The position numbers and the translations under genes are program-made. Shown here in pieces: positions 35,678 to 49,684 of a DNA stretch of 64,000 bases. The notes below the pieces were generated by a model, which worked only from the letters and a program-made list of their open reading frames with translations, was not told the DNA's origin and did no database searches. Source of the DNA: Bryobacterales bacterium (GTDB lineage Bacteria; Acidobacteriota; Terriglobia; Bryobacterales; Bryobacteraceae); NCBI GenBank assembly GCA_026129915.1, contig JAHCHD010000004.1, positions 1-64,000 on the forward strand, read 5' to 3'. Every line of letters starts with the position of its first letter. Position 1 is the first letter of the stretch.

Positions 35678-36565
35678 CTATTGGGGCAGAGTACCCGTTG
35701 TCTTCCACGTCGTGATGCGGTTGAAATGGTACTGCATATAGAAAATCGCGAAGAAGATCATCAGAATCGGATTGAGTTTCAGATTGATGGGCTCCACCGC
35801 GTTGAAGTAACCTTCCAGCGATTTCTTGAGATCGAGAATCCCCGTGATGAAGAAGAACAAATATCCTCCAAATCCGGCCAGAGAAATCAATCCGGAAAGC
35901 ATCGCTCCAATCGCGGAGTCGCTGAGGAGAATCGCCAGAGGAATTGAGATCACGTAGCTCGCAATCAGGATCCCAAAGCCGGTGAGGATTTTTGGCAGGG
36001 TCCTGTTCTGTGGATCCAGCTTCTTCACCCACAAGATTTGCATGATGAACCAAACCAGGCCAAAAATTCCGCACACCATGCTGATCACAAGCACCACCAC
36101 CCAGTTCATGCCCGGTGGCAGCGGCGCGCCGTTCTTCATCGCACCCGCGGGGGCACTGGATGCACCGGCGTTTCCGGCAACTGCACCAAAGCCACCTCCC
36201 ATGGCAGCCATGCCAGCATCTGGCGCGGCGCCATAGCTGGGGGCGGGGGCTCCCCAGGCTGGTTCGGGAGATCCATAGTCGGGGGCCTGCTGCGGCATCG
36301 GTGCTGGATCAAAGAAAGGATCCGCCATCGGCTGGGGTGTCGGAGCGGGGCTATAGCTCGGCTGCGGGGCGGGAGTGGGCGCCGCCGGGCCGCCCGCAGC
36401 TTGCCCCTTCTTGGACAAGATATCCTTTACGGTAAGCCAGCGATCGCTGCCCTCCGCCCTCACCATGTCCGATTCCACGATATTGCCGGACGTCAAGTAC
36501 TGCTGAATGTCGTTCCCGGAATAGGGTCCGAACTCCTGGTCGCCCCGCTTGATCATGTACATCAT
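35678..36565 (-). CDS. GYF_2 (DUF4339) domain membrane protein, first copy
   Basis: 295 residues. The N-terminal GYF_2 domain (YMIKRGDQEFGPYSGNDI, VRAEGSDRWLTVKDIL) precedes a long Pro/Ala/Gly-rich linker over about 55-145, then about four transmembrane helices, ending FYMQYHFNRITTWKTTG. The Pro-rich linker could itself be a ligand for a GYF domain, either its own or its paralog's, giving self-assembly at the membrane (inference). It lies 52 bases after the RING/TM2 gene, with GGGGGA before the start, and 39 bases before its paralog. Confidence 0.82.
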   Translation of the reverse strand: MMYMIKRGDQEFGPYSGNDIQQYLTSGNIVESDMVRAEGSDRWLTVKDILSKKGQAAGGPAAPTPAPQPSYSPAPTPQPMADPFFDPAPMPQQAPDYGSPEPAWGAPAPSYGAAPDAGMAAMGGGFGAVAGNAGASSAPAGAMKNGAPLPPGMNWVVVLVISMVCGIFGLVWFIMQILWVKKLDPQNRTLPKILTGFGILIASYVISIPLAILLSDSAIGAMLSGLISLAGFGGYLFFFITGILDLKKSLEGYFNAVEPINLKLNPILMIFFAIFYMQYHFNRITTWKTTGTLPQ

Positions 36566-36617
36566 TGCCGCTGTTCCCCCTTACCTTATTGAGAGCCGTC
36601 TGTCTCCTGTGTCGGCG

Positions 36618-37226
36618 CTATCCCATCGGGAAGCCATCTCCGTCGTAGTCCACGGTTGCCGCTTCCACCAGCGCCCAGATCCACACAACCGGGGCAAGTA
36701 CGAAACAGCTCAGCAGACTCATACAGAGTTGAATAATACCAGCACTCGTTCGATTTGCATATAGGTTGTGGGCGCCAACGAACCCACAACACACCGCCAG
36801 CCAAACATAGCTCTTCCTGTCCAGGGCGGGCTGTGGCTGCAACTCTGGATGCGTAAAGTGAACCGAGGCGGGATCAATAACCAGGGGCGCAAAAGTACTA
36901 ATTGGCAGCGGGACACCGCTCCCCGGAGCTGGGGGAGGCGGCGGTACACCCGTCGTATCCGAATCCGTGAGACCACTGCCCTGCTGCCATCCTGGCGCTG
37001 GATGCTGAGTGACTGGCGTAGCGGATGGCCCGAATCGCAGGTCATCGGCACTCACCTGTACCATTGCCTCTTCTACCGGCGCCGCGTCGCAGCCAAAAAC
37101 GGTGCAGCCACCGTTCTCTTCCCAACAATCGCGATGGTGGGGGGTCGCGCAGACCGGGCAGACTGTTACTTGCTCGTGCGTCTCATCGATGGGTGCACGG
37201 CAATAGGGGCATACCGGGAGGCTCAT
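36618..37226 (-). CDS. RING-finger/TM2 membrane protein, candidate E3-like factor
   Basis: 202 residues from the ATG at 37226. The N-terminus has a binuclear treble-clef: Cys6-x2-Cys9, Cys23-x2-Cys26, His30-His31, Cys34 (HHRDCW), then Cys41 and Cys46 (GGCTVFGC). This matches prokaryotic RING-type fingers reported next to E1/E2 genes. A Pro-rich linker follows (PPPPPAPGSG), then a C-terminal TM2 domain (YVWLAVCCGFVGAHNLYANR and YDGDGFP) with two membrane helices. It could act as an E3 that presents the loaded E2 to membrane substrates; activity is unproven. The start overlaps the FHA gene stop by 4 bases (ATGA). Confidence 0.83.
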   Translation of the reverse strand: MSLPVCPYCRAPIDETHEQVTVCPVCATPHHRDCWEENGGCTVFGCDAAPVEEAMVQVSADDLRFGPSATPVTQHPAPGWQQGSGLTDSDTTGVPPPPPAPGSGVPLPISTFAPLVIDPASVHFTHPELQPQPALDRKSYVWLAVCCGFVGAHNLYANRTSAGIIQLCMSLLSCFVLAPVVWIWALVEAATVDYDGDGFPMG

Positions 37227-38305
37227 CGCGGATGGCGTTCCTGGTAAAGAAACGTGTAGCGGCCAATTTGCAGCTGGTCGCGATGTCGCAACAATCGCGG
37301 TCGCGTGGGGCTTGTGCCCATGTACACTGGCCCGCGTGGGATAAGCCACAGCCCAGGCCCGCGCCGCTCAAGCGAGGCATGCACGTCCTGGATGGAAGGA
37401 TCCTTAAAGAGATATATATCGCAAACCTGGCTGCGCCCAATGGTGGAAACCGGTTTGTAGAGAATGAATTGCTTGCCTGCAAGAGGCCCGGAGGACACAT
37501 ATAGCCAGCGTTCCTTCAAGGCGCTTTCCACCAGGCCCATGGCCATGCCTGTGCACAGGCCGAACACCGCGAAGCCCACAGCGCGACTCAGGTCGCCACT
37601 GTCGAGCTGGTTGGCGATTGGGTCAAACAGTATTCCCCCGATTCCCGCGCCCAGCATACCGCCCAGCACGCCATACAGAAGCTTGCGCGCGCTCAGCCCG
37701 GCGACACCGTAAACCAGGCCCGCACTCACCCCAAACAGTGCCCAGGCAAGTGACCGGCTGGCCCACCAGGACGGCATCTCCGGGCTGATCTCCCCGCCCA
37801 TTGAGGCAATCCCAAGTAGCAAGTTATACAGGATGGAGGCCACAAAGCTGAACACGAAGCCGAGAGGAATTCCCAACGCAAAGGCCAGGCTCCCGCGGAT
37901 GAGAGCCCTGCGCCACGATCGCTCCACGACGCTTTCGGCGATCGCGCAGCCCAAACAACAAAACGCCACCACCGAAGGAATCATCAACGAGCCCAGCCAT
38001 CCCCAGGAACCTTTTTCCGGGCCGTCCACATACACCGGCTCAATCAACGCCCAGCCAACCAGCGCACCCACGAAGCCTGCAAGCCCCAGGTAGAACCAGC
38101 TCTTCAGCAGGATGCTGCCACGTGGAATAGGTCCCGCTTGCTCTGGTACAGCCGCATCGCGAATGTTTCCATAGCGCTTCCCGGAACCTTCGGCACCAGC
38201 CCGGTCAGCGGGTTGCTCCACGGCATTCCGGGTATCGTTGGCCGCTTCCTCCAAACGCGCCAAGTCAGCGTTCGTAATCCGTAATGGCTCCGGCTGCTCA
38301 CTCAT
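37223..38305 (-). CDS. Multi-pass membrane protein with C-terminal FHA domain
   Basis: 360 residues from the ATG at 38305, with GAAGGTGG upstream. About 65 polar residues are followed by six or so hydrophobic segments between 70 and 260, and then a forkhead-associated domain near 275-355: VSTIGRSQVCDIYLFKDPSIQDVHASL has the GR, S and H positions that bind phosphothreonine. FHA domains read Thr phosphorylation, so this may link the pathway to a Ser/Thr kinase, but no kinase gene is in the window. The gene overlaps the JAMM gene at its start and the RING gene at its end. Confidence 0.85.
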   Translation of the reverse strand: MSEQPEPLRITNADLARLEEAANDTRNAVEQPADRAGAEGSGKRYGNIRDAAVPEQAGPIPRGSILLKSWFYLGLAGFVGALVGWALIEPVYVDGPEKGSWGWLGSLMIPSVVAFCCLGCAIAESVVERSWRRALIRGSLAFALGIPLGFVFSFVASILYNLLLGIASMGGEISPEMPSWWASRSLAWALFGVSAGLVYGVAGLSARKLLYGVLGGMLGAGIGGILFDPIANQLDSGDLSRAVGFAVFGLCTGMAMGLVESALKERWLYVSSGPLAGKQFILYKPVSTIGRSQVCDIYLFKDPSIQDVHASLERRGPGLWLIPRGPVYMGTSPTRPRLLRHRDQLQIGRYTFLYQERHPR

Positions 38306-39233
38306 GGCCACCTTCTCTCTGGGAGCCCTCTGCCGTAGCTTCCTTCTGAGCCGCGGCGCCTCCAGTCTCCGCGCCCGATTGCAGCCCGCGCTCGCGCATT
38401 TCCCGCTGCAGTTGCAGCGCCCGTTCTACAGCCACGCGCGTCTCCGCCTCGCTCAGCAGCCGTCCGTCGGGAAATGAGTACATCACCAAGGTCCGTGGTA
38501 GCAGCATCAGTCCGGCGGCTACACCCGCTACGAATACGAGGGCCATACTGAACAACAACACCAGCCTTTTCCTCAGGCGAGAACGGTTTGACCGGTGAGC
38601 AGTTACCTCCGGTTTATCCTCCTGGCCCGCGTCCTCGGGGGCAACCGTATGCTCAGGCTCATCCTGCAATAGGGCCTCCGTCGCGTGCTTGGTATCAATC
38701 ACGCGTATGGCGCTAAGCCGGCGCAATTCACCGTCCACCCAACCGAAACAGCCCTCTTCCTCCGAATGGGGGTCAAAGACCCAAGCAACCTGGAAGGCCG
38801 CCGAGAAGAAGTTCTCGTGGATGAAGGCGTCATGCCGCGAAAGAAATATTCCAAAGCCAGGGTGGGAGTGATACCAACCCACGATCCGTTTGTCGGGGTA
38901 CTCGCGGTCTTTCACTGAATAAATGTGCTCCCAGGTATCCTGAGTGAATGTAACGTGGGCTCCTCCCTGCGCTGCGTTCTCCCCCGCGATCGCAGCCTCA
39001 ACCAGAGTACCCTCCGGTCGCTCTTCCCCAATCAGAACTCCGCACACCTCGGCGTCCATGCTCGCCCTGGCGTGGCGGTGGATCGCCTGCACCACCGATG
39101 CCGACACCGTCACCTGGCAACTTGCCTGCATCGCCTCCGGGGGCAGGGCGTCAAAGCGCTCCGGATCCGGTAGCTGGGGTGGCGGTGTTTCATGGATCTG
39201 CCTCTTTGGGGACGATTCCGTCTTCCTCTTCAC
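38298..39233 (-). CDS. JAMM/JAB metalloprotease with C-terminal membrane helix, deubiquitinase-like
   Basis: 311 residues from a GTG at 39233, with AAGGAGG upstream. The JAMM zinc site is complete: Glu62 (DAEVCGVLIG), then His122, His124, Ser132 and Asp135 in HSHPGFGIFLSRHD, spaced exactly as HxH-x7-S-x2-D. This predicts an active isopeptidase that could process or remove the ubiquitin-like protein. A transmembrane helix at about 223-246 (LVLLFSMALVFVAGVAAGLML) follows and a charged, helical tail ends it. GTGA couples its start to the E1 C-terminal frame; the FHA gene overlaps its stop. Confidence 0.9.
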   Translation of the reverse strand: MKRKTESSPKRQIHETPPPQLPDPERFDALPPEAMQASCQVTVSASVVQAIHRHARASMDAEVCGVLIGEERPEGTLVEAAIAGENAAQGGAHVTFTQDTWEHIYSVKDREYPDKRIVGWYHSHPGFGIFLSRHDAFIHENFFSAAFQVAWVFDPHSEEEGCFGWVDGELRRLSAIRVIDTKHATEALLQDEPEHTVAPEDAGQEDKPEVTAHRSNRSRLRKRLVLLFSMALVFVAGVAAGLMLLPRTLVMYSFPDGRLLSEAETRVAVERALQLQREMRERGLQSGAETGGAAAQKEATAEGSQREGGHE

Positions 39234-39769
39234 AGGGCCTCCTTCGACAGATCTCCCAGCACCGTGCCCGCATCGCCCGCCATCAGGTAAGCGATCTCCC
39301 GTTCACCTGCCCGCGCGACGACCACATCGAACAATGGAAGGCCCAATTCATCCAGGCGCCGGCCGCCCAACTCGGCATCCCCATGGTAGCCATGGCACAG
39401 CACTACCTCTCGCATCGTCCCATCGGCGGGGTCCTTGCCGTCTTCCATGGACAGTCGTCCAAGAGGGAGGAAGCATTCCTGCGCTACACCGGTTGCCGGG
39501 TTCACCAGCTTCCAAACCACGTCGCGGCTAAACTCCAGCACCGCATGATCCGCATGCAGATCAGCGCATGCTCTGGCCCGCAATTCCTCCAGGGTTATCT
39601 CGCTGGAGCGCTCCGCCAGGCGTACAACCTGGCCGAACGTGTAGTGGCTCAGACAATCCGGGTCCGGCGTGTATTCGGTCACGTAGCTGCTGTGGTGCAG
39701 TCCTTCAAACACAAATCCCTTGCTGCTCAGGCTCGGCAGGCCGTGCAGCAACTTCAGCGCTTCCTGCAC
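39230..39769 (-). CDS. C-terminal half of the E1-like enzyme (separate frame)
   Basis: 179 codons from a GTG at 39769; the frame is open upstream to a TGA near 39786. QEALKLLHG is the helix that in E1 enzymes follows the TTPTTSSxIAG block, and FVFEG with PDCLSHYTF continues that domain. The last 100 residues (ITLEELRARACADL, LDELGLPLFDVVVARAGEREIAYLMAG) have the shape of the ubiquitin-fold domain that binds E2. This is therefore the second half of the gene at 39754-40434, in another frame. Its end contains the ribosome site for the JAMM gene, so this reading frame is probably translated. Confidence 0.75.
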   Translation of the reverse strand: MQEALKLLHGLPSLSSKGFVFEGLHHSSYVTEYTPDPDCLSHYTFGQVVRLAERSSEITLEELRARACADLHADHAVLEFSRDVVWKLVNPATGVAQECFLPLGRLSMEDGKDPADGTMREVVLCHGYHGDAELGGRRLDELGLPLFDVVVARAGEREIAYLMAGDAGTVLGDLSKEAL

Positions 39770-40434
39770 CTGCGCAGCAAGCGATCACCGCGGAACTGGT
39801 GGGGGGTGGTGGCCACCTTGCCTGCTTCCTCGTCGGCGGAGGTCAGCAGGTTGCACGACATCCGTCGGTTCAAAATCGCCCAATCCACCTCGCCCAGCGT
39901 GCATTCATAGCAAGCCGGCTTGCCAGCTTCAAACACTCTGGCCACGCCGTTGAGGCCCTCGATGGCGCCATCGATCCACGGCTTGCCCAGCTTCCAGGCA
40001 GCGCGGTTCAGGAAGAGTCGAGCCTCGCGATTGTCGAGCCCTCCTATAATCACATCCGCCCAATCAAACACTCCCAAGCCAATATCCTGCAGCACATTGG
40101 CATGCATCCCCTGAATGCGGCAATTCGGGTAGAGGGCACGCACGGCACGCGCGGCCACGTTCGCTTTGGCCTGGCCTACATCCTCCTGCCGGAATAGTAC
40201 CCCTCGGCTGAGGTTCGAGGCCTCGATGCAATCGAGGTCCACCACCAGAACGTCGCGAAAGCCCAGCAGGGCGAGGTTCTTGAGAATCTCGTTGCCCAAG
40301 GCGCCCGCGCCTACTACAAGCACGCGTGCCGCCTCAATCACGTCTTGCCGCCACCACGGCAACAAGCGCAGGCGGCTGAAGCGATCGTCCTGAAGCTCCG
40401 CCGTATCCACTCGCACTGTTGGCTGTGCGCTCAT
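39754..40434 (-). CDS. E1-like (UBA3/ThiF family) activating enzyme, N-terminal part; reading frame broken
   Basis: 226 codons in this frame. VLVVGAGALGNEIL (residues 39-52) is the ATP-binding loop; DLDCIEASNLSR gives the Asp and Arg that hold ATP; DNREARLFLN is also conserved. CYEC (175-178) looks like the first half of the zinc site and Cys194 in RRMSC sits where UBA3 has its catalytic Cys. The enzyme should adenylate the C-terminal Gly of the neighbouring ubiquitin-like protein and pass it to Cys. After Pro211 the frame diverges from the family: expected residues continue in the other two frames and resume in the ORF at 39230-39769. AGAGGAG precedes the ATG. Confidence 0.85.
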   Translation of the reverse strand: MSAQPTVRVDTAELQDDRFSRLRLLPWWRQDVIEAARVLVVGAGALGNEILKNLALLGFRDVLVVDLDCIEASNLSRGVLFRQEDVGQAKANVAARAVRALYPNCRIQGMHANVLQDIGLGVFDWADVIIGGLDNREARLFLNRAAWKLGKPWIDGAIEGLNGVARVFEAGKPACYECTLGEVDWAILNRRMSCNLLTSADEEAGKVATTPHQFRGDRLLRRCRKR

Positions 40435-43253: not shown

Positions 43254-44636
43254 TCAGCGCGCTGTCGTTGGCACCGTACTTCGTTCAGCGGCGTAAGAAA
43301 TGTGAGTGCGGTGAATGCGGTGGGCCACCACTTCTGACACCCGCCACGTGGTTCCCGTCTGCTCCGTGCGTAGCATCACTTCAAATCCAGCCACCTCTTT
43401 GAGGTCTGTGACTCCCAGTGCCGCGGCCAGCGTATGCGCTGAGCCGGGTGCAAGCACAAATTCGCCAGCCGCCTCGGTATCGGGCTGGCTGATCCCTCCT
43501 ACCAGCATCACTCTTCCGGTGCGTGAGAGGTTATCTGGTGCGGCTACAAGGGCGTAAGAGCGGCCAGAGTTCTGCTCATCCTCATCTTCGATGGGTGGAT
43601 ACCATTGCCACTCGCCCTCGCGCGGCGCAACATTTAGCCACCGGTTGGGTGCGCCTTCCTTCAACTTGCGAAACTGAAAGTTCAGGCTTGCCTCAAAGAT
43701 CGTTACCCATGGGTTGGCATTCACTGACCCAAGAAACACATAGTTGCCATTCCGAAGGTCCCGCGCCTGCAAGTCGCGGCTCTGCCGAAAGCTCATGCGC
43801 TGCGCGTGCAATGGATACTCGCGGGCCGCTCGCAGAGTAAGGGAAGCGTCGCCGATGTTCAGCAGTTCGCGCGAGACTATGGTTTCCCAATGTTGCAGGT
43901 CGCGTCGTGCCAGCGGGTGGTCCAACGCGAATGCCCTCCGGGAGCGGTAGTCATCAAAGGCAACAGTTTCGCCGGTGAAGCTATTCATCAGGTTCACGAC
44001 GGAATCGGAAGGAACAAAAAACACCGAGCCCTGGGTATCGTCCAGAAATTGCTCAAGAATGGTGTGCTGGGGTTCGGCCGCTGACGCGATCACAATTGCA
44101 TCCGGTGCTGGTTTCTGCCCCTGCCACCAGCTTCCCAGGAAGAACGCCCCCACAATCATCGCGAACGTACCGTAGCGCAAAGCAGCGGTCCTGAGAGGCT
44201 GCCACGTCTCCCAGCGGGTGGGCGCGGGCACTGCAGGTGGCGGAGCAACCGAGGTCGCCGCAAGGGATTCCTTGGGACCACTTACTACCGCCGCGTCCGG
44301 GCCGCGGAGGTGAAAATGAAGCCGATAGTCGCCCTTCGGCACCTGCAGCTCCCAAGACTCGTTCGCCCCCTCAGCCGCATAGTACTCCGCCAGTCGCTGG
44401 CGTAGTTGCCGCATGGAGGCGCGGACGATGCTATCCATCGACGGGTCAAAGTCCGCACCACGTTCAAACAACTCCGAACCGATCCGGGCCTCATGAATGG
44501 CGTCGCCGCGGCCGGCAAAATGATGGTCGGCGAGATACTCCAGCAGTTGCCTGGAACGGGCTGATTTGTGAAACCACTCGCTACCCAGGATGCGGGCGAG
44601 CAAAGCACGATGCTCAGTGCTAACTCGTTCATTCAT
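43254..44636 (-). CDS. ToxR-like membrane-anchored winged-helix regulator
   Basis: 460 residues. Residues 1-110 are a winged-helix DNA-binding region common in Acidobacteria: SRQLLEYLADHHFAGRG, ARIGSELFERGADFDPSMDS, VRASMRQLRQRLAEYY and LQVPKGDYRLHF. A Pro-rich linker leads to one transmembrane helix at 154-171. The remaining 285 residues would face the periplasm and lack a recognisable sensor family. The gene is divergent from the Oar-like receptor at 44782; three direct repeats lie between them, so it is likely the receptor's regulator and may regulate itself. Confidence 0.8.
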   Translation of the reverse strand: MNERVSTEHRALLARILGSEWFHKSARSRQLLEYLADHHFAGRGDAIHEARIGSELFERGADFDPSMDSIVRASMRQLRQRLAEYYAAEGANESWELQVPKGDYRLHFHLRGPDAAVVSGPKESLAATSVAPPPAVPAPTRWETWQPLRTAALRYGTFAMIVGAFFLGSWWQGQKPAPDAIVIASAAEPQHTILEQFLDDTQGSVFFVPSDSVVNLMNSFTGETVAFDDYRSRRAFALDHPLARRDLQHWETIVSRELLNIGDASLTLRAAREYPLHAQRMSFRQSRDLQARDLRNGNYVFLGSVNANPWVTIFEASLNFQFRKLKEGAPNRWLNVAPREGEWQWYPPIEDEDEQNSGRSYALVAAPDNLSRTGRVMLVGGISQPDTEAAGEFVLAPGSAHTLAAALGVTDLKEVAGFEVMLRTEQTGTTWRVSEVVAHRIHRTHISYAAERSTVPTTAR

Positions 44637-44674
44637 AAAGTGCCTTAAATCCCTCTTTCACCCAGGCCCCGCCG

Positions 44675-44702
44675 TTTCACAGAACTTTCACGGGGAATTC
44701 AC
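44675..44702. promoter_or_regulatory. Three 11-bp-phased direct repeats, candidate operator
   Basis: TTTCAC at 44675 and 44686 and ATTCAC at 44697 are spaced by exactly one helical turn, with AAC following in the first and third repeat. A further TTTCAC lies at 44656. PhoB-type winged-helix proteins bind 11-bp-phased direct repeats. The site lies between the winged-helix regulator and the receptor gene, about 80-107 bases before the receptor ATG, and fits activation or autoregulation. Confidence 0.5.
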
Positions 44703-44781
44703 TGAACTTATGGTCCTTTTGTATGTCATTCGTGGAGTAGTTGCAACCCCTTTTTGATTCAGGGGTCTTTGGAGGTTTCCT

Positions 44782-47700
44782 ATGTCCGGTCGTTTAGGGC
44801 ACTGGCTTCTGTCCGTTTTGTGCCTTATTATCTTTGCCACGCTCGGTCAGGCACAGACGGCTACTGTCACAGGCCGCATCACTGATTCCACGGGCGCTGT
44901 CGTGCCCGGAACGCAAATCACAGTCACCAATGTGGCTACCGCGGCTGCGCGAGTGGTCAACGCAAACGAGATTGGCTACTACACGGTGCCGCTGTTGTCG
45001 CCTGGCGAGTATCGCATCACGGTGGAGCAACCAGGGTTCCGCCCGGTCAACCGAACCGGCATCATTCTAAACGTGGACCAGCGCGCCACCATCGACTTTG
45101 CACTGGAACTCGGTTCCGTCTCCGAGCAGATTGAGGTGAGTGCCGACGCGCTCCAACTCAACACCGTGGAGGCGAGCCAAGGCCAGGTAATTGAGAACCG
45201 GCGCATTGTCGACATGCCCCTCAATGGGCGCGACTACAACCAGTTGGCGCTGCTTTCTGCTGGGACGGTCCAACCGCTTCCAGATGCACGCTATGCGGGA
45301 TTTAGCTCCGGCGGCATGCGCGTCACACAGAACAATTTCATGCTCGACGGCGTCGACAATAACGCCGTTGAGTTGGCCGGTGCCCAGCGCCAGTCCGAGA
45401 TGGTGAAGCCATCCGTTGACGCCGTCCAGGAGTTCAAGGTCCAAACCAACTCCTATTCCGCCGAATTCGGACGCGCCATGGGCAGCGTAGTGAATGTCAC
45501 CACGAAGTCCGGCACCAACGATCTGCACGGCACCGCATTTCACTTTCTGCGCAACGAAAAGCTGGATGCCAAGAACTACTTCGACCCGGTGGATCGCCCC
45601 CGTCCTCCGTTCAAACGTAATCAGTTTGGCTTCTCGATTGGCGGGCCCGCTTTCGTGCCGAAGATCTTCGATGGCCGGAACAAGGTGTTCTGGTTCGGCA
45701 ACTACGAAGGAACCCGCGTTCGCGAGAGCAATACCGCCAACAACACGATCCCCACGCTGCGCATGCGCCAGGGCGACTTCGGAGATCTGCTCGAACAGCG
45801 CAGCCGAACCATCATCGATCCCGCAAACCGTCAGCCCTTTGCCAACAACCTAATTCCGCAGTCCCGCTTTGACCCGGTCGCAAGCCGTTTGATGGGTCTC
45901 TATCCGACACCCCAATCAACATCCGTCGCCGCGAACTTTGTCTACAATGCTCCCCGCCCCCAGGACGTGGAACTCTTTGGTTTCCGGTTTGACGTCAATC
46001 TCGGTTCAAAGGACAACATCAGCTATCGCTACAGCCAACAGGACCTGCTGAATCCGGCTGCACTCCTGTTGCCGCCACCGGCCTTCACGCCCAATAACGA
46101 CTTCAACACCCAGGGCAAGATCACAAGCGCAACGTGGAACCACATTTTTTCGCCCACAGTCCTGATGTCGCTACGGGGCGCTTGGAACTTCGGACTGTTC
46201 AAGCGCGACAATCCAGCACAGGCTGGCCGCGACTTCCTGAACCTCACCTACGGCATTCCGGGAGGAAACCCAAATATCCCCGGCGGCATGTCAGCCATGA
46301 ACATAACGGGTTACACCAGCCTCGGCCTGGGCGCCAACAATCCGGTGGATCGCGACTCCCAGAACCGGCAACTTGTGGGTGATCTGACATGGATTAAGGG
46401 ACAGCACACCATAAAGATGGGCGCCAACCTGATGCGCATGCAGAACAACATCTACAACATCCGCGGCGAGATCGGAAACTACGGGTTTAACGGACAGTTC
46501 ACCAACGACGGAGCTGCGGATTTCCTGCTTGGAACCGCCAACAACTACAGCTGGAGTTCCGTCATTCAGGTCGACCTGCGCGCCTGGAACACGGCAGCCT
46601 TCATCCAGGACGACTGGAAGGTATCACCAAACCTCACTGTGAACCTGGGGATGCGCTACGAGCTCACCACTCCCTTCATCGACAAACGCGACCGGATGGG
46701 TATCCTCGATAACTGGACGGATCCGGCAAACCCCCGCCTGATCTACGCCGGCTCAGAGGGAAGCGATACCTACAACCGGGCAATGATCGCCATTGACCGC
46801 AACAACTTCATGCCTCGTGTGGGCTTCGCATACAAGCTAGGCCAGAAAACGGTGTTGCGGTCAGGCTATGGCGTCTTCTTCATGCTCTTCGAGCCACTTG
46901 GAGACAGCGAATTCCTCTTGGGAAATCCTCCGAATGCATTCGCCGTGAATCTGGCATCCAGTGCCACGGTTCCGGCGGTGCTCCTCAAGGATGGGCCTCC
47001 GGAAGGCGCCCTCAACATCCAGCGGGCGACGGGACTCACCTTCGTGTCCTACGAGCGACGGCCGAACCAGAGCTATTCACAGCAATGGAACTTTAACATC
47101 CAACAGGAGTTGGCACGCGACTGGCTGTTTGAGATCGGCTACTCGGGGACGAAGGGTACCCATCTCGTGAATCGGTACGATGACAACTTCTCCCCACCGG
47201 GTCCGGGCAACATCAACGCAAAGCGGCCGTTGAACCGGATGGAGATTCCTGGGACCGGCGTGGTGACTTCCCCGTTGGCAGGCATCTACGGATACCACCA
47301 CAACGGCAATTCCATCTATCACGGGATGATAACGAAGCTCGAAAAGCGCTTTTCCCAGGGTTTCACCCTGCTCACTTCGTATTCGTTCTCCAAGACCATC
47401 GGCGATACATGTGCTGGTGCGGCGCAAGGGAACACCACAGGATGCGGCCATCAGGACCTGCGTAACCTGCGCGCCGAGCGCGCGCTCGACAACCAGGATG
47501 TTCCGCACCGTCTGGTGGTAAGCGGCTTGTATGAGCTTCCGTTTGGCCGAGGCCGGCGGGTAGGGGCATCCATGCCCGGCGTTGTGGATGCGGTTCTTGG
47601 AGGCTGGGCGGTGGGTAGCATTGTGACTGCGGCAAGCGGGCGCCCCTACAATGCCACTACACAGGGCAATCCGGCCAATACGGGCAGCTTGGCTGTCGTC

Positions 47701-48039
47701 AACCGGCCGAACATTTCGGGAAACCCCTATGGGGGGACTCGTACGGTGCAGCGCGACTTCGATATTGGCATGTTCACACCGAATGCCGCCAACACCCTCG
47801 GTACGGCGGGAAGGAACATCCTGCGGCAGCGGGACCAGTTTGGCTGGGATTTCTCCGCACTGAAGGATTTCCGCATTGTGGAGGACCTAACCTTGCAGTT
47901 CCGCTTCGAAGCCTTCCAGGTCACCAACACCCCGCGCTTTGGCCAGGCTGGAGCGGTAGTGGGTACAAACACGTTTGGTCAGATCACAGGAGCGGCCACC
48001 CCGCGCAACCTGCAGTTTGGACTTAAGCTAATTTGGTAG
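44782..48039 (+). CDS. Oar-like TonB-dependent receptor with carboxypeptidase-regulatory N-domain
   Basis: 1085 residues; TGGAGG precedes the ATG. The signal peptide is LLSVLCLIIFATLGQAQ. The carboxypeptidase-regulatory domain (GRITDSTGAVVPGTQITVT) spans about 25-110, the plug shows DMPLNGRDYNQLALLSAGTV and NNFMLDGVDNNAVEL, and the barrel ends NLQFGLKLIW with a terminal aromatic residue. The protein should sit in the outer membrane and import a ligand with help from TonB. Controlled probably by the divergent winged-helix regulator. A sulfatase gene follows after 121 bases, so the imported ligand may be a sulfated glycan (inference). Confidence 0.88.
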   Translation: MSGRLGHWLLSVLCLIIFATLGQAQTATVTGRITDSTGAVVPGTQITVTNVATAAARVVNANEIGYYTVPLLSPGEYRITVEQPGFRPVNRTGIILNVDQRATIDFALELGSVSEQIEVSADALQLNTVEASQGQVIENRRIVDMPLNGRDYNQLALLSAGTVQPLPDARYAGFSSGGMRVTQNNFMLDGVDNNAVELAGAQRQSEMVKPSVDAVQEFKVQTNSYSAEFGRAMGSVVNVTTKSGTNDLHGTAFHFLRNEKLDAKNYFDPVDRPRPPFKRNQFGFSIGGPAFVPKIFDGRNKVFWFGNYEGTRVRESNTANNTIPTLRMRQGDFGDLLEQRSRTIIDPANRQPFANNLIPQSRFDPVASRLMGLYPTPQSTSVAANFVYNAPRPQDVELFGFRFDVNLGSKDNISYRYSQQDLLNPAALLLPPPAFTPNNDFNTQGKITSATWNHIFSPTVLMSLRGAWNFGLFKRDNPAQAGRDFLNLTYGIPGGNPNIPGGMSAMNITGYTSLGLGANNPVDRDSQNRQLVGDLTWIKGQHTIKMGANLMRMQNNIYNIRGEIGNYGFNGQFTNDGAADFLLGTANNYSWSSVIQVDLRAWNTAAFIQDDWKVSPNLTVNLGMRYELTTPFIDKRDRMGILDNWTDPANPRLIYAGSEGSDTYNRAMIAIDRNNFMPRVGFAYKLGQKTVLRSGYGVFFMLFEPLGDSEFLLGNPPNAFAVNLASSATVPAVLLKDGPPEGALNIQRATGLTFVSYERRPNQSYSQQWNFNIQQELARDWLFEIGYSGTKGTHLVNRYDDNFSPPGPGNINAKRPLNRMEIPGTGVVTSPLAGIYGYHHNGNSIYHGMITKLEKRFSQGFTLLTSYSFSKTIGDTCAGAAQGNTTGCGHQDLRNLRAERALDNQDVPHRLVVSGLYELPFGRGRRVGASMPGVVDAVLGGWAVGSIVTAASGRPYNATTQGNPANTGSLAVVNRPNISGNPYGGTRTVQRDFDIGMFTPNAANTLGTAGRNILRQRDQFGWDFSALKDFRIVEDLTLQFRFEAFQVTNTPRFGQAGAVVGTNTFGQITGAATPRNLQFGLKLIW

Positions 48040-48160: not shown

Positions 48161-49684
48161 ATGAATCGCAGGACTTTTCTTGGTGGCCTCTCCGCCGCCG
48201 CCCTTACCGCGCAGTTTGGACGCGCAGCCAACGGCAAACCCTGGAACATCCTGATGATGTTCTCCGACGACCACGCCTGGCAGGCCGTAAGTGCCTACGG
48301 AGGCAAGCTGAACAAAACCCCTCACATCGACCGCATCGCCCATGAAGGCATGCGTTTTGATCAGTGCCTGGTAACCAACTCAATCTGCGCCCCGAGCCGC
48401 GCGGTGGTGCTCACGGGCAAGCACAGCCATCTGAACGGGGTCATCGACAATGCCGTTACCTTTGATGGCAACCAGCAGACTTTTCCCAAGCTCGTGCAGA
48501 AAGCCGGCTACCAGACTGCCATGATCGGCAAGTGGCACTTGAAAAGTGACCCCACGGGTTTCGACCATTGGGAGGTGCTTCCCGGCCAGGGCAGCTACTA
48601 CAACCCCGATTTTCTGTTCAAGGGCGGACGCCACCGCCGCGAAGGCTACGTCACCGACATTATCGGCGACCTAACCCTGGACTGGCTGAAGAATGGCCGT
48701 GATCCGAACAAACCATTCCTGCTGTTTAGTCAGCAAAAGGCACCGCACCGGAACTGGATGCCCGCACCCGAAAAGATGTGGATGTACGAAGGTGAGGACC
48801 TGCCAGAACCAGAAACGCTCTTTGACAACTACGAGGGCCGCGCGACGCCGGCACGTCTTCAGGAAATGGAAATCGATCGCCACATGCGCTGGAACCACGA
48901 TATGAAAGTTCCAGAGTGGTCCGACCGCAGCTTTGGCGGCAACGACGGCAACGCCGAGTGGGCACGCATGACCCCGGAACAGAAGCGCCAGTGGGATGCC
49001 GCGTACGGTCCTCGCAATGCCGAGTTGTTCAAGAAGAATCCGCAGGGCCGCGATCTCGTTCGCTGGAAGTATCAGCGTTACATTAAGGACTATCTGCGCT
49101 GCATTTCGTCTGTCGATGACAATGTAGGCAAGGTCTTGAGCTATCTGGATGCCGCCGGCCTCGCCGAAAATACCCTGGTGGTTTACAGTTCTGACCAAGG
49201 CTTTTATCTTGGCGAGCACGGATGGTTTGACAAGCGCTGGATCTACGAAGAGAGCTTGCGTACGCCCCTCGTGATGCGCATGCCCGGCGTAATCGAGCGA
49301 GGCAGCGTGAATCGAAACTTGGTATCGAACCTTGATCTTGCCCAGACCTTCCTGGACGTGGCGGGACAGCCCCAGCCGAGCGACATGCAGGGAGCCAGCA
49401 TGTTGCCCCTGTTACGCGGCGAGCAGCCAGCCGATTGGCGCAAGAGCTTCTACTTCCAGTACTTCGAGAAGGGAGTCCACAACGTCGCGCCACACGATGG
49501 CGTCCGCACCGACAGGTACACGCTGGCGCATTTCCATGAGACCGAGGAGTGGGAGCTGTACGACCTCACCCGAGACCCCCAACAGATGCGCAGCGTTTAT
49601 GGGGACGATGCCTACCAGAATGTGGTGAAGGAACTAAAGGCAGAGCTCACCAGGCTGCGGAAACACTACAAGGTGGACGCCTGA
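48161..49684 (+). CDS. Sulfatase, Tat-type signal
   Basis: 507 residues. The leader [22 protein letters not shown] has a twin arginine. The formylglycine site is Cys76 in CAPSR, and Asp36-Asp37 (MMFSDDHAW) with [17 protein letters not shown] supply the metal ligands. Length and motifs match arylsulfatase/heparan-like bacterial enzymes of the type common in polysaccharide utilisation. It differs clearly from the sulfatase at 24300 (CSPSR). A hairpin terminator follows its stop. Confidence 0.9.

Follow-up and report, generated by a model that had tools for sequence, protein, structure and literature searches.

An 11-bp-phased repeat array between the gene of a predicted membrane-bound winged-helix regulator and an Oar-type receptor gene in a Bryobacterales bacterium

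Known systems and the divergent locus

In Bacteroidota, ECF sigma/anti-sigma or hybrid two-component systems adjoin SusC. Acidobacteriota genomes encode dozens of Oar-type receptors whose substrates and control are uncharacterised, and for which operator geometry offers a computable handle. The closest described regulators carry winged-helix DNA-binding domains and fall into two groups. OmpR/PhoB-family proteins occupy direct repeats as tandem dimers, and PhoP of Mycobacterium tuberculosis needs 7-bp motifs separated by exactly 4 bp, binding three- and four-unit sites better than two-unit sites (PMC4832192). ToxR and CadC join an N-terminal OmpR-type winged helix-turn-helix (wHTH) to a single membrane helix and a C-terminal outer sensor domain; CadC sites are arranged head-to-head, while ToxR sites read TNAAA-N5-TNAAA, with a 10-bp period in the tox-box (PMC5430869, PMC8517210).

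The locus described here lies in a 64,000-nucleotide stretch of a Bryobacterales genome (the window, meaning the whole stretch analysed). A regulator gene and a receptor gene diverge from a gap of 145 bp, in which no Rfam family was recognized:

43254..44636, minus strand: membrane-bound one-component regulator, 460 aa (AlphaFold2 model; Trans_reg_C in homologues)
43299..44069, minus strand: outer domain of the regulator, residues 190-445
44782..48039, plus strand: Oar-type outer-membrane receptor (CarboxypepD_reg + OMP_b-brl_4, by Pfam), the presumed target
48161..49684, plus strand: sulfatase, 3' of the receptor (Pfam PF00884/PF16347)

The receptor matches PF25183 (OMP_b-brl_4) at 5e-234 and PF13620 (CarboxypepD_reg) at 3.7e-19. 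The sulfatase gene probably belongs to the same operon, and a sulfatase 89% identical to that of the window also neighbours the receptor in a second genome, G185. This linkage suggests that the receptor takes up sulfated or other polysaccharide-derived substrates. The locus resembles regulator-linked SusC/Oar-type loci in that a dedicated membrane sensor is encoded next to degradative enzymes and a receptor of the outer membrane, but departs from the SusC loci in having a one-component wHTH regulator, with a predicted 11-bp tandem operator.

Elsewhere in the window (35678-40434, minus strand) there is a cluster encoding ThiF/E1-like, JAB (deubiquitinase-like), FHA, prokaryotic RING-finger + TM2 and GYF_2 proteins, which resembles a bacterial system for ubiquitin-like conjugation. 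A 179-aa protein encoded between its E1-like and JAB genes (39230-39769) has no Pfam match.

Predicted architecture of the regulator

The full-length regulator was modelled with AlphaFold2 at a pLDDT of 87 (71 homologues). The model has a wHTH at about residues 3-110 and, separate from it, an outer domain at about 190-445, with the membrane helix (146-173) between the two, and its predicted topology places the wHTH inside and the outer domain outside the membrane. This is consistent with the first-pass annotation of the sequence, which had proposed one membrane helix at 154-171 followed by a large external domain.

The wHTH assignment comes from predicted structure and from homologues. Pfam, including Trans_reg_C (PF00486), gave no match in the window regulator, NCBIfam gave none above its cut-off, and no solved structure was clearly related to the protein by sequence. 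Trans_reg_C, the OmpR/PhoB effector domain, was matched in 25 of 71 full-length homologues and in 37 of 96 homologue N-domains (best 3.9e-7). Modelled alone, the N-domain reached a pLDDT of 86, and its top structural matches were PrrA (Z 7.3), SaeR (7.0), PhoB (6.5 and 6.4, the latter for PhoB on pho-box DNA) and AdeR (6.2), in alignments of 84-89 residues at an rmsd of 3.3-4.1. The six best matches are all OmpR/PhoB-type, at Z values (6-7) that are modest. VIA-align re-ranks Foldseek candidates only, the Foldseek E-values for these candidates were poor, and Foldseek by itself returned no significant match for either the full-length or the N-domain model. The fold matches and the Pfam hits in homologues support the winged-helix N-domain that had been read from the sequence, and predict an OmpR/PhoB-type winged helix with a recognition helix and a C-terminal wing hairpin.

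Like the OmpR/PhoB response regulators, this protein is predicted to have the wHTH fold; unlike them, it is too divergent in sequence for Pfam Trans_reg_C, and its wHTH stands at the N-terminus, followed in the same chain by a membrane helix and the outer domain. Neither Pfam nor the model revealed a receiver domain, and the protein begins directly with the wHTH, so that it lacks the N-terminal receiver of a two-component response regulator. The predicted order, from an OmpR-type wHTH at the N-terminus through a single membrane helix to an outer domain, is that of ToxR and CadC. The earlier label 'ToxR-like' therefore holds for architecture, as predicted by the model, and not as a statement of descent. 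The outer domain was most similar to the C-terminal domain of the cellulose-synthase subunit BcsB, at Z 9.3, and showed a weaker likeness to the N-terminal domains of GH67, GH115 and GH84 enzymes, including alpha-glucuronidases (Z 6.7-8.4). These likenesses, weak overall at Z about 7-9, give a hint that the outer domain may be a carbohydrate sensor.

The repeat array, its conservation and its likely role

The first-pass annotation had pointed to three hexamers with an 11-bp period between the two genes, and these were found exactly where it had placed them, on the plus strand and with a period of exactly 11 bp:

44656..44661, plus strand: fourth TTTCAC, 19 bp upstream of unit 1, out of phase and not conserved
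44675..44680, plus strand: repeat unit 1, TTTCAC (5 of 6 columns invariant in three orthologues)
44686..44691, plus strand: repeat unit 2, TTTCAC (6 of 6 columns invariant in three orthologues)
44697..44702, plus strand: repeat unit 3, ATTCAC (5 of 6 columns invariant), overlapping the putative -35
44698-44703, plus strand: putative -35, TTCACT, overlapping unit 3
44722..44727, plus strand: putative -10, TATGTC, 18 nt downstream of TTCACT, conserved in three orthologues

The fourth hexamer is probably incidental. For 6-mers in three copies at lag 11, the highest score in the 145-bp gap is 17/18, a value reached by dinucleotide-preserving shuffles of the same gap with P=0.002 at lag 11 and P=0.0175 at any lag of 7-30. 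With up to one mismatch the triple occurs once in the 64-kb window, and the exact triple occurs at a single place in the whole 5.28-Mb genome. Taken alone, then, the triple in the window is only suggestive.

The observation becomes firm because the array is conserved in orthologues. Promoter-intact orthologues were found in two genomes, G002 (regulator 55% and receptor 85% identical) and G185 (52% and 79%), and both promoters retain the three units in phase. The first-pass reading had depended on the repeats being kept in orthologous divergent promoters, as they are in these two. Across the three orthologues, the motif has 16 invariant columns out of 18 and the rest of the gap 47 out of 117 (Fisher P 1e-4); the repeat block ranks, within one base, as the most conserved 28 bp between the two genes. 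It might be argued that what is conserved is the receptor core promoter only and that the two upstream repeats arose by coincidence, as unit 3 does resemble a -35 element and the shuffle P over all lags is 0.0175. However, units 1 and 2 are conserved equally to unit 3, and lag 11 is enriched family-wide even with the window locus excluded (see below); with the repeats conserved, coincidence is highly improbable.

Conservation also reaches the candidate promoter. The putative -35 is TTCACT in two of the orthologues and TTGACT in G185, where the putative -10 is TATGAC rather than TATGTC. Both elements are off consensus, and no strict sigma-70 promoter was recognized in the gap. If the assignment is correct, unit 3 lies over the receptor -35, as the last unit does in PhoB/PhoP sites. 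This overlapping position is where PhoB-type activators contact RNA polymerase, and activation is thus the most likely outcome. The same overlap is compatible with the linked regulator acting as a repressor, whose occupancy of the -35 would block RNA polymerase until ligand is sensed. We regard repression as unlikely, given that PhoB-type activators use this very position and that poor promoter hexamers suit an activator-dependent promoter.

Which protein binds the repeats can be approached from their distribution. Among receptors of 55-85% identity, the phased repeats track the divergent regulator. In five receptor relatives with 62-67% identity and no divergent regulator found (L260, L261, L263, L264 and L265), the triple was absent in all five, and the position weight matrix (PWM) score was 0.4 or lower against null values of 0.5 (95%) and 4.4 (99%). 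In contrast, a locus that does have a regulator (L262; receptor 63%, regulator 31%) carries GAATCACAGTC-CTACCACAGCG-AATTCACCTTT and scores 6.1, and G135 (receptor 55%) has a degenerate in-phase version, as judged by eye. The PWM was derived from the orthologues, whose own high scores are therefore by construction; sequence conservation here concerns three orthologues, and the contrast of presence and absence a handful of loci. Since regulator-keeping relatives keep the repeats, the regulator very likely docks there.

A different protein is conceivable. The array has the 7 + 4 geometry of the M. tuberculosis PhoP site, it shares direct repeats of 11-bp period with the PhoB pho box and with M. 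tuberculosis and Streptomyces PhoP sites, and its TTCAC resembles the Streptomyces PhoP unit, GTTCACC-N4-GTTCACC (cited in PMC4832192). The repeats could thus be a Pho box, read by a PhoB/PhoP-type response regulator of a true two-component system, which would place the operon in a phosphate or other global regulon. A Pho box should go with PhoB, PhoU and Pst in the genomes that carry it; PstS (TIGR00975), however, had no match in six genomes of the group. PhoU was not found in G001 (99% complete), G002 or G185 (97%), of which G002 and G185 retain the repeats. A PhoU match in G000 is on a foreign-looking contig, and the repeats, as described above, go together with the linked regulator, the receptor relatives in which none was found having no triple upstream. 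On these grounds we consider a Pho box improbable; a response regulator outside the Pho system is conceivable.

That contig (G000:C91, locus L227) is short and carries PhoU with an apparent PhoB-like gene, while close relatives of the genome are without PhoU/PstS; it is possibly foreign sequence from assembly contamination.

We therefore favour, as likely though short of certain, a reading in which the divergent membrane-anchored regulator uses the three repeats as its tandem operator, bound head-to-tail, with unit 3 over the receptor -35 and activating. By dimerising or oligomerising in the inner membrane, the regulator would bring two or three of its N-terminal winged-helix domains, of the OmpR/PhoB type, onto consecutive 11-bp units, lined up head-to-tail along the same face of the DNA. 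The 7 + 4 geometry of the array fits the binding of direct repeats by OmpR/PhoB-family proteins as tandem dimers, with the spacing that M. tuberculosis PhoP requires (PMC4832192). The unit nearest the receptor, unit 3, would overlap the -35 element, a signal sensed by the outer domain would lead to activation of the receptor-sulfatase operon, and the regulator gene would probably be autoregulated from the same repeats. Binding, activation, oligomerisation, ligand sensing and autoregulation are all steps that we infer. Against this reading, the proposed head-to-tail, 11-bp arrangement is unlike the CadC and ToxR sites.

Further candidate sites and 11-bp spacing across the family

The first-pass annotation had also suggested that recurrence of the repeat at other receptor loci would define a regulon. 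Genome-wide, neither the triple nor the pair was in excess over a reversed control. No second copy of the triple stood above control in the pattern search, places with three mismatches being no commoner than in the reversed sequence, and TTTCAC-N5-TTTCAC with up to one mismatch gave 14 matches in the genome and 14 in the control. Twelve of the 14 lie outside the window locus, mostly within genes, with three between predicted genes. One of these three, L186 (G000:C278:21203), is 5' of an unlinked Oar-type receptor and has an exact TTTCACAGTGAATTCAC; another, L178 (G000:C19:1043), is 5' of a sulfatase gene followed by a receptor at C19:2537; the third is at C2:19300. The sites at L186 and L178 are suggestive, and we treat them as candidate additional targets of the regulator. 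No phased motif was seen upstream of homologues of either candidate target, these homologues being distant (40-60% identity), and the motif is absent from most other receptor promoters examined in G000 and G185. The two genomes counted have 55 and 64 Oar-type receptor matches, and two or three further candidate sites among about 55 receptor genes do not support a wide receptor regulon. What stood of the earlier suggestion is recurrence at one receptor and one sulfatase-receptor operon; most of the receptor promoters examined lack the repeat.

An apparent enrichment of the 17-mer TTTCACNGNGAATTCAC in 237 family genomes, relative to the reversed control, was rejected because most of the 30 loci inspected lie inside genes, as expected from codon bias. 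Two intergenic TTTCACNGNGAATTCAC loci (L210, L212) lie exactly between a regulator-receptor pair.

Spacing, as opposed to sequence, recurs more broadly. We took the best direct repeat at each lag of 6-30, whatever its motif, and scored it against shuffles preserving base composition only. Lag 11 was the only one to stand out: there, the 108 regions upstream of regulator homologues gave Z 0.89±0.12, compared with -0.08±0.09 for 133 further intergenic regions taken at these loci. With the window's cluster removed, 102 de-replicated promoters gave Z 0.64±0.12 at lag 11 (control intergenic regions -0.09), while the other lags in this set had a mean of 0.08 (SD 0.14) and a maximum of 0.42, at lag 10; about 9-17 of the 102 were individually significant (<0.05) at lag 11. 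The lag-11 excess across the family is thus real on average and modest in size, and the 11-bp period that had been put forward as a binding-site geometry does recur in promoters of the regulator family.

The words that are repeated appear to differ between regulator clades. TTCAC occurs at 5.6 per kb beside close regulator homologues, 2.2 beside distant ones and 2.4 in controls, while GTTAAC occurs at 0.4, 1.0 and 0.2 per kb, respectively; GAATTC is also enriched beside close homologues. Predicted recognition-helix positions 76/77 shift between clades (R/Q versus G,S/R). Promoters at L049, L051, L108, L111, L018 and L091 have 11-bp repeats of their own (CATAACCGTGA, AACCGGTT, CTGTGAATTCC): the direct repeats are of the CATAACCGTGA type in L049 and L051 and are CTGTGAATTCC in L091, and L108 and L111 carry AACCGGT repeats. 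In one set, 38 of 53 close regulator homologues have a divergent receptor beside them.

These patterns lead us to propose, tentatively and with slightly less than even confidence, that membrane-bound one-component regulators have expanded in the Bryobacteraceae-type lineage of Acidobacteriota, each of them beside its own receptor and with its own 11-bp tandem word, in which word and recognition helix co-evolve, as a counterpart of the Bacteroidota regulator-SusC pairs. Direct-repeat operators of OmpR/PhoB-type proteins and the ToxR-type architecture are already known; the two combined in an acidobacterial family linked to receptors, where 11-bp words differ by clade, appear undescribed, and a literature search, which most subscription papers lay outside, found no published description of the regulator family. 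For each regulator-receptor pair the operator would be predictable and usable for finding unlinked targets, so that the array offers an entry point for decoding such sensor-receptor pairs, a large family that has gone unstudied.

Two regulator-homologue promoters, L166 and L175, have palindromes (TTCACTAGTGAA and GTGAATTCAC), in which the same half-site is inverted about 24 bp apart.
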